Of a stretch of DNA of 32,131 nucleotides, positions 12,663-32,130 are shown piece after piece; within the stretch, counting starts at the first letter, position 1; each line of letters opens with the position of its first letter. Origin of the DNA: Selenomonadaceae bacterium (GTDB lineage Bacteria > Bacillota > Negativicutes > Selenomonadales > Selenomonadaceae); the NCBI GenBank assembly GCA_017406175.1, contig JAFQZB010000248.1:1-32131 (forward strand), read 5' to 3'. The translations under genes and the position numbers were made by a program. The notes beneath the pieces were generated by a model. That model had not been told where the DNA came from. It ran no database searches and saw only the letters and a list, made by a program, of their open reading frames with translations.

Positions 12663-12893
12663 CGAAGGAGGAAAGATCTGGGGTGTACGAGGAATCAGAT
12701 AATGTCTAACCTACATTAAAATTAGGGAACCTGAATTGAATTCGGAAGATGGAGAATTGTCCGTGAGGCGAGTAACAGAGACCGAGCTTAAGGAACCCAC
12801 CTGCGAGTAAGCAGGTTTAGACATTCAGAGGAACCGGCACTTTGGAAGCCTTTTTCAGGAGAGGCCGCTGATTACAATCGGCGGTCTCTTCTT
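12663..12893 (+). ncRNA. Structured RNA candidate, class unassigned
   Basis: About 230 bases between a good promoter and a terminator-like hairpin, with no plausible ORF. AATGTCTAA (12701-12709) pairs perfectly with TTAGACATT (12817-12825), and the helix continues as CCT/AGG with one bulge. Inside it are a perfect hairpin ACCTGC-GAGTAA-GCAGGT (12799-12816) and a smaller hairpin around CTGAATTGAATTCGG (12731-12745). Outside it, ATCTG/CAGAT (12676-12699) can pair. GAGGAA occurs on both flanks of the long helix (12689 and 12828). The architecture (own promoter, long closing helix, multi-hairpin interior) suits a stable ncRNA such as a 6S-like or raiA-type RNA, but I could not match either from memory. 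A leader of yaaR is the alternative. Confidence 0.55.
12860..12893 (+). terminator. Terminator-like hairpin after the RNA candidate
   Basis: AGAGGCCGCTGATT and AATCGGCGGTCTCT form a long hairpin (about 13 pairs with G-U pairs and one irregularity) with a 2-4-base loop. A modest T-rich tail (CTTCTTG) follows. The weak tail leaves open an attenuator in front of yaaR. Confidence 0.55.
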
Positions 12894-23062: not shown

Positions 23063-24118
23063 TTACAACATGCTATCAATCTCCTTGAACAGTTCGGCGA
23101 CGAGTTGAGCTTCAGGAACTTTGCGGACGATTTGCCCCTTGCGGAAAATAATTCCTTGTCCGTCAGCTCCGGCGATGCCAACATCAGCCGTCCGCGCCTC
23201 GCCGGGACCATTGACGACACAACCCATAACCGCGACTGTCAGCGGCTGTTTGATTGTGTTAAGACGTTCCTCGACCTGCGCGGCGATTGCGGGCAAGTCA
23301 ATCCGTGTGCGTCCGCAAGTCGGGCAAGCAATCAACGTAACGCCGCCTTCACGCAAGCCCAGCGACTTGAGAATTTCCTTAGCGACTTTGACTTCAACGA
23401 GCGGGTCGCCCGTCAACGAAACGCGGATTGTATCGCCAATGCCCTCCGCTAGCAATGCGCCGATTCCCACCGCCGACTTTATCACGCCGCTATTAATCGT
23501 GCCCGCCTCCGTGATTCCCAAATGCAAAGGGTAGTTCGTCTGCCGACTTGCCAAACGATAAGCCGCCAACGTCAACGGCACGTCGTGAGCCTTCAGAGAA
23601 ATTTTTATGTCGAAGAAGTCTTCCGCCTCCAAAATCGCGACGTGCTCCATTGCCGATTCAACCAGAGCCTCAGGCGTCGCCCCGCCGTATTTAGCTAAGA
23701 GCTTGCGACTTAATGACCCCGCGTTGACGCCTATCCTTATCGGAATTCGGGACGCTTTCGCAGATTTGACGACTTCCCGCACGTGAGCCGCCCCGCCTAT
23801 GTTGCCAGGGTTCAATCGCAACGCCGCCACGCCTTGAGCAATCGCCTCCAACGCCAGCTTATAATCAAAGTGAATGTCCGCGACAATCGGCACGTCGACT
23901 GCAGAGACAATCGCGCCTAAGGACTTCGCCGTCGTCATATCGGGCACGGCAACTCGGACAATGTCGCAACCCTCCGCCGCGAGCCTTTGGACTTGTTCAA
24001 TCGTCGCCGCCGTGTCGTGAGTCTTCGTGTTCGTCATGGACTGGATACTAATCGCCGCCCCGCCACCAACTTTGACGTTCCCAACGCTGATTTGCCGTGT
24101 CAACTTCCTATCAATCAT
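23063..24118 (-). CDS. ispG: (E)-4-hydroxy-3-methylbut-2-enyl-diphosphate synthase
   Basis: 351 residues, the bacterial short form. Converts MEcPP to HMBPP in the methylerythritol phosphate route to isoprenoids, using a 4Fe-4S cluster. Cluster ligands are visible as C265, C268 (ACPTCGRT) and C300 (GCVVNGPGE), with Glu307 as the fourth ligand. The TIM-barrel part shows SIQSMTNTKTHD, DIHFDYKLA and RLNPGNIG. The ATG abuts the wbaP TGA directly (TGAATG). ispG in other Bacillota often lies with dxr and rseP; here it is coupled to a polyprenyl-phosphate sugar transferase, linking isoprenoid supply and use by position. Confidence 0.97.
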   Translation of the reverse strand: MIDRKLTRQISVGNVKVGGGAAISIQSMTNTKTHDTAATIEQVQRLAAEGCDIVRVAVPDMTTAKSLGAIVSAVDVPIVADIHFDYKLALEAIAQGVAALRLNPGNIGGAAHVREVVKSAKASRIPIRIGVNAGSLSRKLLAKYGGATPEALVESAMEHVAILEAEDFFDIKISLKAHDVPLTLAAYRLASRQTNYPLHLGITEAGTINSGVIKSAVGIGALLAEGIGDTIRVSLTGDPLVEVKVAKEILKSLGLREGGVTLIACPTCGRTRIDLPAIAAQVEERLNTIKQPLTVAVMGCVVNGPGEARTADVGIAGADGQGIIFRKGQIVRKVPEAQLVAELFKEIDSML

Positions 24119-25858: not shown

Positions 25859-27094
25859 TCAAAGTTTTGCTAGAAGTTCTCTCGTATGCTTAGCGACGTC
25901 TTCGGGCTTGACATTTTTATTGCGAGCAACGCCCGACTCAATGGCAGCCTTAGCGACCGCCGCCGCGACCGTCGGGGCAACCCGTTCATCAAAAGGCGTC
26001 GTGATTACATGTTCTTCGTTGAGCTCGTCTTCACTGACAAGGGAGGCAATCGCATAAGCCGCCGCGATTTTCATTTCCTCGTTGACATCAGTCGCCCGAA
26101 CGTCCAAAGCTCCTCTGAATATGCCGGGGAAGGCAAGCAAATTGTTGACTTGATTTGGGAAGTCACTGCGACCCGTGGCGACGACGCGAGCACCTGCCGC
26201 CTTAGCCTTGTCGGGCATAATTTCAGGCACGGGATTAGCCATTGCCAATATAATTGCGTCTTTGTTCATGGACTTAACCATTTCTTCCGTCAGCAGGTTC
26301 GCCTTCGACACGCCGATAAAAACATCCGCGCCTTGAATAATATCGACGAGCTGCCCCGCCTCGTGATTACAGTTCGTGACTGCGGCGATTTGGTCTTTGT
26401 AAGGATTCATGCCCTTGCCGCGTCCCTCGTAAATTGCCCCCGTCGAATCGCACAGCACAACATCTTCCGCGCCCATTTTTTGAATCAGATAAGTTATCGC
26501 CATGCCAGCCGCGCCCGCGCCGTTGACGACAACTTTTATATTCTCGAACTTCTTGCCGACGAGCCTAAGGGCATTAATCAGAGCCGCCGCAACGACAATC
26601 GCTGTACCGTGTTGGTCATCGTGGAAAACTGGAATGTCAATGGAGTCTTTTAACGCCTGTTCAATGTCGAAGCATTCGGGAGCTTTAATGTCCTCAAGGT
26701 TAATGCCGCCGAAGCTCGGAGCCATAAGTTGAATCGTCTTGATGATTTCGGGGACGCTCTTTGTATTAAGGCAAATGGGAATGGCATCGACGCCCGAGAA
26801 TCCTTTAAAGAGAATCGCTTTGCCTTCCATGACGGGAAGCCCTGCCCCCGCGCCGATATCACCCAAGCCGAGAACCGCCGTACCGTTCGTGACGACTGCT
26901 ACGAGGTTGCCGCGGTTAGTGTAGTCATAAATCTTATCGTAATCTTCTTTTATCTCAAGACAGGGAGCCGCGACGCCCGGAGTATATGCAAGCGTTAAAT
27001 CTTTATTCGTCTTCAGCGATACTTTGCTCCTGACTTCAAGTTTGCCGTGATTAGCCTTATGCAGAGCAAGTGCTTCCTTGTCGACATTTGCCAC
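25859..27094 (-). CDS. Malic enzyme (NAD(P)-dependent, short bacterial type)
   Basis: 411 residues. Oxidative decarboxylation of malate to pyruvate and CO2. The catalytic Tyr37 sits in TLAYTPGVA, Lys92 in [13 protein letters not shown], and metal ligands are in NLEDI (133-136) and FHDDQHGTA (158-165). The Rossmann motif GAGAAG is at 192-197. Length matches the single-subunit short malic enzymes without the phosphotransacetylase domain. The start is GTG at 27094 with AAAGGA about 10 bases upstream; the nearby ATG is followed by a stop and is not used. A strong promoter TTGAAA-17-TATAAT lies upstream. Coenzyme preference is not evident. Confidence 0.94.
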
Positions 27095-27227: not shown

Positions 27228-27256
27228 TTGCAAACAAAAATATTTTCTGCTACAGT
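27228..27256 (+). promoter_or_regulatory. Promoter of the second structured RNA candidate
   Basis: TTGCAA (27228-27233), 17-base spacer, TACAGT (27251-27256) with TGC at the extended -10 position. The predicted start is near 27263. It is divergent from the malic enzyme promoter. An AAAAATTTTT box lies just upstream (27208-27217). Confidence 0.65.
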
Positions 27257-27262
27257 TAAGCG

Positions 27263-27510
27263 GCGGGAGGGACGAGAATGTTAAAAATTTAATCTAGTTC
27301 TAAAAATCCTCTAATCATTTCAAAATATAATTTTCGCTAATCCCATTAAAACATAAACGCCACAGAGCCGAAGAGATGTCCCCGCATCAAGGTCGGCGGC
27401 AAATAAACTGCGGTGCCCACCAAGCGTCGCAATCGGGAGGTGAGATATGAAGAATTAACCCATAGTCCAAATAAAAATCAAGACGGAGGCAAAAGCTTCC
27501 GTCTTTTTTC
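27263..27510 (+). ncRNA. Structured RNA candidate with pseudoknot potential, class unassigned
   Basis: About 245 bases with its own promoter and a strong terminator, and no plausible gene. GCCGA (27367-27371) pairs with TCGGC (27393-27397), and CCGCA (27382-27386) pairs with TGCGG (27409-27413); the two helices interleave as an H-type pseudoknot. GGGAC (27269-27273) can reach GTCCC (27378-27382), in competition with or extending the fold. GGCG/CGCC and ATGTT/AACAT could close an AT-rich arm between 27262 and 27357. A short hairpin GGTGCCCACC is at 27412-27421. The conserved-looking G/C-rich islands in an otherwise AT-rich gap suggest a functional RNA. I do not recognise the class. The RNA ends before the convergent glycosyltransferase gene. 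Confidence 0.55.
27481..27510 (+). terminator. Rho-independent terminator
   Basis: AGACGGAGGC-AAAA-GCTTCCGTCT (ten pairs with one G-U), followed by TTTTTT. Read from the other strand it is followed by TGATTTTTA, so it may also stop the minus-strand glycosyltransferase transcript. Confidence 0.85.
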
Positions 27511-27527
27511 GTGCATATGATTTGCGG

Positions 27528-29911
27528 TTAGGTGTCGCTCCTGTGCGGTTGCCATTCGACATGGATTTTGATTTCCTCGTTCGCTTTTGCCTCAAAGTCG
27601 TAACGATAAAATTTATCGTGCCAAGCGGGCGTTAGCTCATCGAATATCGTTTCTCCGTTTACAGCCAACTTGCTGTAGTCAATCCAATAAGGAATGCGTT
27701 TAGTCTTGTCCGTGGGGTCTCTAACATCTACACCAAGGAGCCTCAACATAATTTTTCCAGCCACTGTAGCTTTAGCGGTGAAGTCCAATTCTCCCACGTA
27801 GGAGTGAATCTGGTAGCCAATGCCGTTCTTTTGAAACCAAGCGGGTTTCCATATCTTTGTTTTCTTGTCGGAGACGGAAAGAATCTCAAAATCGCCCGTA
27901 GTGCTCATTAACTGAATATCTAACCTAGCAGTAAGATAGCGTTCAAATTTATTAACTACTTTAACGTAGAAGTCATTAGATGCTTTTTCGTTGATAACGC
28001 TAAAGAGGAACGGCAATAACATCGCTGATGAATAAGAAAATTTTTTGGCGAATTCTTCATGCAAGATTTTGTAAAGCTCCTCGTTGCTGAGTTCCTTTCT
28101 TGCCTCTTCGGTTCGATCAAGACAGCGCATAAGATGTATACTTAACGCCGCTAAACAATAATCGGGATTTTCCGCTAAGACTGCGTTTTCCTTTTCTAAT
28201 TCATACAAAGCCTCAGTGAAATCCACGAAAGAAGAAAACCAAAATCTACATTGTTCCTGCGGTGCTCTAACCTTTCGTACAATGGAATTAGTATTGTAAA
28301 GCCTATGTACATAAAGCGGCGTTGCAATTCGCAAAAATCGCCTTGCGTGGCAATACATATTGATAGTACGAATAGCATCTCCCGAGGTGCGTATATTCGC
28401 AAAGAAAATTTTGTTTCGGACTATAAAATCACGATGAACAAATTTTGTCCATGCTGCTAGATCATTTCCTGAAACGACGTCTAATCTTGTCAACGAATCA
28501 GTGGAACTTCCTTCAAGTAGGAGTCGATTGAGATTTTTATTTGGATCGTCGATAGTAAATTCTGTATGGATAGCAGACATTTTTCTGCTTACCCTATCTC
28601 TAATCAAGTAAATATCATTCGGCGCACGTAAAAAATACCAAGAAGATGTGTAAACTACTTCAGCGTTATAAAGGATTGCCGCTTTATAAAAAATTTCAAG
28701 TGCGGTATCTAAAATCATGTCGTCGGCGTCCATAAAATAAATATACTCACCACGAGTCAACATCATTCCGATATTTCGCGGAACGTGACCGCCGCCGCCC
28801 GAATTCTCTTCCGTCCGAGTGAGCTTGAGCCGCCCGTCAAATTTCGGCGCGTAACTTTCAACGATAGCAACGGAATTATCGGTTGAGCAATCGTCCACGA
28901 TGATTACTTCATAATCTTGGAACGTTTGAGCAAGGAGACTGTCGAGGCACTCGCCGATAAATTCAGCCGCGTTGTACATTGGAATGACTACTGATACGGC
29001 ATGACATTTTCGAGAAGAAAGACCACCAGTCAAGACCGCCGCTGTATCAGCGTCAACCCACGGCGTCTTAAGAAAATAATCCATGAACAGCTGACTATAT
29101 GGATCTCTACTGTCCATAATGAAAGAAGTCATATTTGTCACAAAATGATAAAGCTTTTTCTCAATCGTCCATTCGTCTTCGCGTCTTGCACGCACAACAA
29201 AACGATTAAACTTCAACGGCAACTTTAGATACGTAGTCGAGAAACAATAATTCAGAATATCTTGATCAAGAAGTCTAAACTGCGGATGTTCGCTGACGAA
29301 TTTCATGCCCGCCAGTATGTTAGGCTCTTCGTCACGCAAAACCTTCAAGTTCAGTAACATGACGCCAGAATTGAAATAGTCTTCTGGATTTACAACACCT
29401 TCTCCGCAAATAGTTATGTGTTTTTTTTGGTTCTTAATAGAGGCATCTTTATCTTTAATTTGATAGAATTCGGAAATTGCGCCAAAAGGTTTATCATACA
29501 GTTCAATCTGCCAAAGCTCTGCAATGTCAAGGTTGACGATAGTATCCGAGTCAAGATAGATTGCCTTTTCTATTCCCTGCGGCAGAAGAAGATGCTGGAT
29601 AAAAAATCGATAGAACGTTGCGATACTGTGGCGGTCGGCATAAATATCTGGAAAGTACTCACTTATTTGCGCGAATCTATCTGCGCACAGTTCCTCGACG
29701 TTATAAAACTTCAGCTGTTGCCCGTAGCGTTTGGCGATTTGAATGAACTTATCGCGGTTTCCGTCCGTCAAAGTATTGTCGTGCAAAAGATGAACTGTGA
29801 TTGACGGTAATTGGGAGGGATATGATTCTCAAAGAGCGAGAGCATTGCCGTGCCCGTGAATCTAGAATAAGTTCCCGTCCCGTCGTAAAGGGCAAAACAA
29901 ACCTGAATCAT
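27528..29911 (-). CDS. GT8-GT2 two-domain glycosyltransferase, broken by one frameshift
   Basis: The intended product is about 794 residues. The start ATG at 29911 has AAGGAG 7 bases upstream and encodes MIQVCFALYDGTGTYSRF, a GT8 beginning. After ~31 residues this frame ends soon (stop near 29768). The rest continues in another frame as PSITVHLLHDNTLTDGN, again typical GT8. One base appears lost in ATCCCTCCC around 29815-29822. GT8 motifs follow: YLDSDTIV (DxD) and FNSGVMLLNL. A GT2 domain begins near residue 304 (VSVVIPMYNAAEFIGECLDS, VDDCSTDNS, MDADD). The C-terminal ~130 residues look like a beta-sandwich. Role: probably surface polysaccharide or glycoprotein sugar addition. It is either a pseudogene or carries a sequencing error. 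Downstream of deoB. Confidence 0.8.
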
Positions 29912-30845: not shown

Positions 30846-30928
30846 ATAGTGATAGGTAACTCTTTGAAATAATCTCCGAGTTTTCCCCCACTCCACACCG
30901 TGCAAGCGACTTTCACCGCACACGGCGT
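30846..30928 (-). other. Group II intron domains V and VI and 3' splice site
   Basis: Domain V (30895-30928): ACGCCGTG pairs with CACGGTGT (one G-U), and the upper helix GCGGT-GAAA-GTCGC has a GNRA tetraloop. The catalytic triad position reads CGC. Domain VI: AACTC/GAGTT and GTGG.GG/CCTATCAC strands with a bulged A at 30853. Next to it the exon begins with GAGATTGCC. Confidence 0.85.
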
Positions 30929-30957
30929 TCCATCTTTGATATTTCATTTCAATCTAA

Positions 30958-32130
30958 TCAATCTACCGAAAGAATATTATTTCCAACTAATTTTCTTAAC
31001 ACATTGAGCTTTTGGATATCAGGCTTGCAGGTTTGTAAATAATGTTGAATAGTTTTGGCTCTGGTGGCGTGTATAAGCTTGTGGACAGTTGCTGTGACCA
31101 GAATCAAATTTTGATAATCGTCTGTGCCACCTTGCGCTTTTGGAATTTTGTGGTGACAGTGGATTTCTTCCGTTGAAGTAAACTTTTCCCCAGTGACAGC
31201 GCAACACCCCGTTTGAGCTGAGTAGAGCGAGATTCGGTTATCGGCATATTCTATGCTTCTACCATATAACGGTTGACGTAGTAGTTTAACCTTGATTTCG
31301 TCAACTGTTTCAAGTTGCTCGTCTTTGCTCTTATTCATTGGATTTTTGCATTGCACATACCCGACAGGATAAATTGGTTCATCAGCAAGGTAACGTAGCC
31401 TTTTAGATTTGCTATATCTTACCCTTTCGGTTGTGGTTAGTTTACGTCCTTTCTTTTGAATTCCTTTAAGCCTGTTTGTAATAACCGTCATGACTGCCCT
31501 ATTAAGCTTATGTGCGTCTAAACTGATATTAGTTGCAATTCGGTAATAATTTTGCATTCCCATGACCATTTTATTATACTGTCGGATTTCTCCAAGCAGT
31601 CCTTTTTCTGGTCGTGGGCGTGCTATTCGTTTCACTTGCTCAACAAGGGCTTTCTTTTTGGTTTTGAGTTGCTTATCGTTGATATGCGATTTGACTACCT
31701 GCTTTTCACCTTTGGAATGGACTTTGATTTTGAAACCTAAAAACTCGGTATATCTGCGTTTTACGTTTACTGCTCTTGTTTTCTCCTGCGAAACTTCTAA
31801 CTTAAGCCTTTCAGACAGCCATTTTATTACTGCAATTTTTGTCTTTTCAGCTGCTGTTTTTGTTCGGCAAAAGATTCGGAAGTCGTCAGCATAACGTACG
31901 ATGTACATTTCTTTGAGCTTTGTTTTGCGCATTGCCCCATAACCATAACTTTTTATTAGTGTTCCTTTTGAGTTTGTACTTTTTGAGTATTTGTAAACGA
32001 TTGGATTTTTTTCCCAGTTACTTTCTACCCAATGGTCGAGTTCATTTAGCACGATATTTGCTAAAAGTGGCGAGATTATTCCGCCTTGTGGCGTCCCTTT
32101 TGTCGGATATTTCAGCTCGCCGTTTGGCAT
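30958..32130 (-). CDS. ltrA: Group II intron reverse transcriptase/maturase with HNH endonuclease (N-terminus beyond window)
   Basis: 390 codons visible, open to the window edge; the ATG at 32130 is probably internal because RT motifs 0-4 are missing. Visible: GTPQGGIISPLLANIVLNELD (RT motif 4/5 region), the catalytic YADD at 80-83, FLGFKI (RT7), then the thumb/maturase X domain and the DNA-binding region. A C-terminal HNH endonuclease follows, with CCAVTGEKF, IHCHHKIPKAQGG and NLILVTATVHKLIHA. This is the set needed for retrohoming: maturase activity for splicing, reverse transcription and target-strand nicking. The gene is AT-rich compared with deoB. The stop lies 29 bases before domain V. 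Confidence 0.92.
   Translation of the reverse strand: MPNGELKYPTKGTPQGGIISPLLANIVLNELDHWVESNWEKNPIVYKYSKSTNSKGTLIKSYGYGAMRKTKLKEMYIVRYADDFRIFCRTKTAAEKTKIAVIKWLSERLKLEVSQEKTRAVNVKRRYTEFLGFKIKVHSKGEKQVVKSHINDKQLKTKKKALVEQVKRIARPRPEKGLLGEIRQYNKMVMGMQNYYRIATNISLDAHKLNRAVMTVITNRLKGIQKKGRKLTTTERVRYSKSKRLRYLADEPIYPVGYVQCKNPMNKSKDEQLETVDEIKVKLLRQPLYGRSIEYADNRISLYSAQTGCCAVTGEKFTSTEEIHCHHKIPKAQGGTDDYQNLILVTATVHKLIHATRAKTIQHYLQTCKPDIQKLNVLRKLVGNNILSVD

Follow-up and report, generated by a model that had tools for sequence, protein, structure and literature searches.

The window analyzed here, a 32,131-nt stretch of DNA comprising one contig of a 3.5-Mb draft Selenomonadaceae genome, very probably carries a real, new small RNA (sRNA) gene restricted to a single clade, judging from its sequence and that of its relatives. 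The gene is well supported as a predicted stand-alone unit, some 247 nt in length and preceded by a sigma-A-type promoter of its own. Its product is probably a regulator acting on other messages, since it combines C-rich loops with a strong Shine-Dalgarno (SD) sequence before a tiny ORF.

Transcription Unit and Genomic Setting

The RNA region lies in an AT-rich intergenic gap and is divergent from malic enzyme, an arrangement proposed in the initial annotation of this DNA and borne out by the gene layout of the window:

25859-27094, minus strand: malic enzyme gene, one flank of the RNA region
27228-27256, plus strand: promoter, with -35 element TTGCAA (27228-27233), 17-nt spacer and extended -10 element TGC-TACAGT (27248-27256)
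27263-27509, plus strand: predicted small RNA transcript, with similar sequences in 30 genomes from the genus
27480-27509, plus strand: intrinsic terminator, with stem-loop 27480-27505 (11-pair stem, 4-nt loop) and T tail
27528-29786, minus strand: two-domain glycosyltransferase gene, the other flank

The promoter originally read as TTGCAA-17-TACAGT (TACAGT at 27251-27256, preceded by the extended TGC) was upheld by comparison, as TTGCAA, the identical 17-nt spacing and a -10 region of the form TGCTA[CA]A[GT]T are kept in 29 of the 30 loci. It was missed by a simple consensus scan because its sequence departs from TTGACA/TATAAT. An A/T-rich stretch just upstream, GAAAAATTTTT, is also conserved and is possibly an UP element. 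At the sole exception, locus L020, the RNA core is intact and the usual promoter and 5′ end have been replaced by unrelated sequence, which may reflect a rearrangement or an assembly join. The transcript start was inferred 7 nt past the -10 element and the end was set at the T-run of the terminator. The strong terminator of the initial annotation, an 11-pair stem with a T-run in the window, is conserved among relatives in position and form and starts 32–38 nt past the AUG of the mini-ORF (see below). The full RNA, including the terminator, folds better than shuffled sequences (z −3.0).

The genes found past the terminator were assigned by Pfam to IspG/GcpE, glutamine synthetase, two kinds of glycosyltransferase, a carboxylase, a response regulator and others; they lie on either strand among relatives and on the opposite strand in the window. 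The fixed same-strand downstream gene expected of a riboswitch or attenuator was thus lacking, and because the downstream genes are unrelated and often on the opposite strand the RNA does not appear to be a leader. Malic enzyme is the divergent neighbor at 25 of the 30 loci and is not required, given the five loci without it.

Several other elements were observed in and around these loci. In the window, about 3 kb separates the GcpE/IspG gene (23063-24118, minus strand) from the RNA; at L013, L020, L022 and L026 this gene is directly downstream, on the strand of the RNA (checked with Pfam for L013), and its shifting position is a sign of local rearrangement. At six loci (L018, L021, L027, L028, L031 and L036) the downstream gene encodes a recurring protein that, by eye, looks secreted and has many Pro, Glu and Lys residues; its L018 copy had no Pfam match. 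Elsewhere in the window, an intergenic 6S RNA match (12672-12852, plus strand) scored just above the Rfam threshold (47.0 vs 46.4 bits) and is possibly the “first” unassigned RNA of the initial annotation. A group II intron (30846-32130, minus strand) extends as far as the edge of the window and is located directly upstream of a gene of a metalloenzyme superfamily, with its catalytic RNA end at 30846-30930 and a reverse transcriptase with an HNH domain at 30958-32130 (minus strand).

Distribution

A blastn search of 199 related genomes identified the RNA in 30 genomes, all from one genus, and with a covariance model of the core, 30 of the 66 genus members each yielded a single strong copy (E 1e-20 to 1e-30). 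Two extra weak matches to the model (G049 and G052, 26–27 bits) were judged by eye to be coding DNA. Outside the genus, no convincing match was obtained among 189 genomes of the family or 380 genomes of the class Negativicutes, the latter searched at E ≤ 0.001. In a malic-enzyme tree, which leaves out five carriers without an adjoining malic enzyme gene and one partial sequence, RNA carriers formed one clade (support 100/99); at the malic-enzyme locus of non-carriers the RNA is absent, with other sequence present upstream of malic enzyme. Nothing resembling the RNA was found in the plasmids, phages and viral contigs searched, and a mobile origin was rejected.

Exact-pattern matches among named public genomes fell mostly in Selenomonadaceae or Selenomonadales bacteria, largely ruminant-derived, and included the Quinella bins 1Q5, 1Q7 and 2Q5; the host genus is therefore taken to be the one that contains Quinella. 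Further pattern matches, in Enterobacter, Streptomyces and others, were attributed to chance given how limited the specificity of the pattern is.

Conserved Core and 5′ Domain

The core was aligned across 29 species, and the following elements on the plus strand were delineated:

27263-27337: 5′ domain, with helix 27263-27268/27332-27337 closing a weaker hairpin
27358-27364: CGCCACA, invariant in 29 of 29
27367-27370/27394-27397: stem C, 100% of cells paired
27375-27378/27385-27388: hairpin C′ with loop UCCCCG (27379-27384), 100% of cells paired
27409-27416/27424-27431: hairpin D with loop CCACCAA (27417-27423), 4 of 8 pairs changed on both sides
27435-27443: Shine-Dalgarno sequence GGGAGGUGA, GGUGA invariant in 29 of 29
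27447-27458: mini-ORF AUG AAG AAU UAA, AUG invariant in 29 of 29

Taken together, helices C, C′ and D are paired in 95.9% of cells, with both-side changes in 8 pairs and 48 cells; their covariation score was 0.321, compared with 0.159 for shuffles and at most 0.078 for slid versions of the helices. Four of the pairs with compensatory changes belong to stem C and hairpin C′. The stems vary between species while the hairpin loops (UCCCC of C′ invariant; CCACCAA of D invariant in 29 of 29) and the SD-AUG segment are fixed. Since the core alone folds no more stably than shuffled sequence (z −0.19), the case for an RNA is comparative, built on conservation and covariation rather than folding energy.

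The alignment also bears on the interleaved fold put forward in the initial annotation. One of its two helices, 27367-27371/27393-27397, is present, with the four pairs 27367-27370/27394-27397 holding in 29 of 29 species and C-G pairs changing to U-A. Its proposed partner, 27382-27386/27409-27413, showed no both-side changes and scored the same as shuffles, and its first pair fails to form in 15 of 29 species; its arms belong instead to the strongly covarying hairpins C′ and D. The pseudoknot was therefore rejected, the relatives showing no covariation for the interleaved helix. The suggested third contact, GGGAC/GTCCC, likewise fails: GUCCC is almost invariant, but the opposite arm drifts (to GGAAC, TAGAC, TAGGC and others).

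The 5′ helix (27263-27268/27332-27337) has moderate support as a predicted element: 90% of its cells are paired and two pairs have both-side changes, with weak covariation. At L021 both arms have been replaced together, by eye, with ACAAGA/TCTTGT. An alternative 5′ pairing, GGGAG/CCUCU, was rejected, being disrupted in many of the species that retain the 5′ helix. An AU-rich linker to about 27357 joins the 5′ domain to the core; the linker sequence TTCTAAnAATCCTCTAAnnATCTTnAAATATAATTCCCGTTAATCCC, seen at 27296-27352 and in relatives, shows high conservation that no structure accounts for. Downstream of the linker, pairing of the CGCC within the 27358-27364 motif to the GGUG of the Shine-Dalgarno sequence was predicted by RNAalifold, both arms being invariant. 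The CACC of loop D is also complementary to GGUG.

Shine-Dalgarno Sequence and Mini-ORF

The SD-AUG-stop element, which was absent from the initial annotation, has the makeup of a regulatory minigene. A stop codon occurs within three codons of the conserved AUG in 22 of 29 species, against 6.5 expected as the mean of 2000 shuffles of the spacer (maximum 15) and against 1 and 6 of 29 in the two alternative frames. Because the species are related, the shuffle value cannot be read as a clean probability, and the other-frame control shares this kinship. In the remaining seven (L010, L012, L019, L020, L021, L027 and L028) the stop falls at codon 6 or later, or the ORF runs into the terminator. The early stop differs by species (TAA, TGA or TAG) and the sense codons vary, which suggests selection on the early stop rather than on the peptide. 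The conserved peptide expected of a dual-function sRNA was thus not found, as start and early stop are kept and residues are not.

Comparison with Known RNAs

Both in the window region and in 14 relatives, cmscan detected no Rfam family at either gathering or permissive thresholds. Specific candidates were each discounted: isrP (21.4 bits vs a threshold of 45) covers little beyond the terminator, the cobalamin riboswitch (RF00174) gave no match in the window region at E up to 5 or in the 14 relatives at E up to 3, and at this locus 6S RNA (RF00013) was unmatched and no tmRNA or tRNA was found. The initial proposal of an independently transcribed RNA without a known family, likely to act in trans, is supported by this result together with the promoter, the terminator and the unrelated downstream genes.

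The closest parallels are the C-rich sRNAs of Firmicutes (RoxS/RsaE, FsrA, RsaI and IsrR). Like them, the Quinella RNA is a stand-alone gene with a promoter, an intrinsic terminator and no fixed downstream gene, and it exposes invariant C-rich loops (UCCCC and CCACCAA) on variable, covarying stems; the malic enzyme gene diverging from it at 25 of the 30 loci hints at a setting in central metabolism. Unlike them, it has a conserved SD with a mini-ORF, its fold differs, and no sequence or covariance-model match connects them. The RNA thus perhaps resembles a C-rich sRNA in its mode of action while lying outside the described families. With dual-function sRNAs it shares a regulatory-looking RNA and a real-looking translation start, yet here the ORF has 2–3 codons in most species and encodes no conserved peptide; the conserved minigene is unlike any dual-function sRNA known to us. 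Regulatory minigenes are known beside toxin-antitoxin genes, and that of axe-txe likewise consists of an SD, an AUG, one or two sense codons and a stop; however, it adjoins the gene it controls, whereas the present one sits within a free-standing sRNA before the terminator (PMC8708949).

Possible Modes of Action

We tentatively favor a trans-acting sRNA with C-rich seed loops that carries a ribosome-recruiting minigene. Pairing seeds are usually recognized as fixed loops on stems that vary. Pairing in trans is favored by this pattern together with the binding of central-metabolism targets by the C-rich regions of RoxS and FsrA in B. subtilis (PMC8216469). By this reading, the UCCCC and CCACCAA loops would base-pair to mRNA targets at their G-rich Shine-Dalgarno regions, blocking translation or altering mRNA stability in the manner of the C-rich regions of RoxS, FsrA and RsaE/RsaI. 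The strong ribosome-binding site with its ORF of 2–3 codons would act as a minigene whose product is irrelevant. Ribosome binding there would compete with GGUG pairing either to the CACC of loop D or to the 5′ CGCC, and could free or lock these segments given their complementarity; the competition would set seed availability, or might protect the RNA. Some observations count against the trans-acting reading: the invariance of the loops and SD fits binding of a protein, a ligand or the ribosome equally well, and in seven species no stop follows the AUG within three codons. When 8 carriers were scanned for complements of the loops ahead of an AUG, the matches fell mostly inside coding sequence and pointed to no consistent gene. 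A more specific version, in which the RNA would represent a new class of ribosome-gated sRNA whose minigene-bound ribosomes switch the exposure of two C-rich, SD-complementary loops, is speculative and in our estimate improbable.

The same minigene could instead serve as a ribosome decoy or sensor, an unlikely though credible alternative in which an abundant short RNA captures 30S or 70S particles through its SD-AUG-stop element and reports or buffers free ribosomes, with the C-rich loops acting in cis as anti-SD arms that open and close the minigene. The invariant GGUGA and AUG, the excess of early stops and the complementarity of loop D CACC and 5′ CGCC, both invariant, to the SD all agree with this proposal, but it leaves the invariant UCCCC loop unexplained and meets the same difficulty in the seven species without an early stop.

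A rather improbable alternative is the protein- or ligand-binding RNA of the initial annotation, acting in trans; it would be 6S-like or riboswitch-like, with 5′ CGCCACA and the invariant loops forming its binding surface. Such a surface is consistent with the long unpaired stretches that stay invariant within a small, GC-richer core, and GCUGUCCCCGCA presumably resembles part of the cobalamin riboswitch core, which we treat as a lead only. Against it, cmscan found no family even at a permissive E-value, cobalamin riboswitch and 6S included; moreover, the pseudoknot proposed to form the pocket is unsupported and no conserved gene is available to be switched. The invariant C-rich loops and the SD mini-ORF would fit base-pairing or ribosome contact better than ligand or protein binding.

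We regard as quite unlikely a sponge RNA in which a second, C-rich sRNA of the cell would be trapped by GGGAGGUGA and further G-rich stretches, as RoxS and FsrA are by the stand-alone sponge RosA (PMC8216469). The SD-like segment is strongly conserved, and Firmicutes have known sponge sRNAs that stand alone (PMC8216469). The Quinella RNA shares with RosA-type sponges a free-standing form and a G-rich segment able to trap C-rich RNAs, and differs from them in having C-rich loops of its own and a conserved AUG with an in-frame early stop, for which a sponge has no need. Finally, a leader (attenuator or riboswitch) with a leader mini-ORF and terminator is very improbable: the order of SD, tiny ORF and terminator resembles attenuation leaders, and some relatives have a plus-strand gene soon past the terminator, but synteny contradicts this reading, the downstream genes being unrelated and often on the other strand.

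Implications

Quinella, which is uncultured, occurs in abundance in the rumen of certain low-methane sheep. A genomic study of Quinella made no mention of small or non-coding RNA (PMC9585023), and the present analysis adds to this group an RNA that is specific to one clade and shows strong signs of function. If the trans-acting sRNA favored here were indeed ribosome-gated, repression of its targets would be coupled to translational capacity in a rumen bacterium, and minigene gating of seed loops would constitute a new way of tying sRNA activity to ribosome supply.
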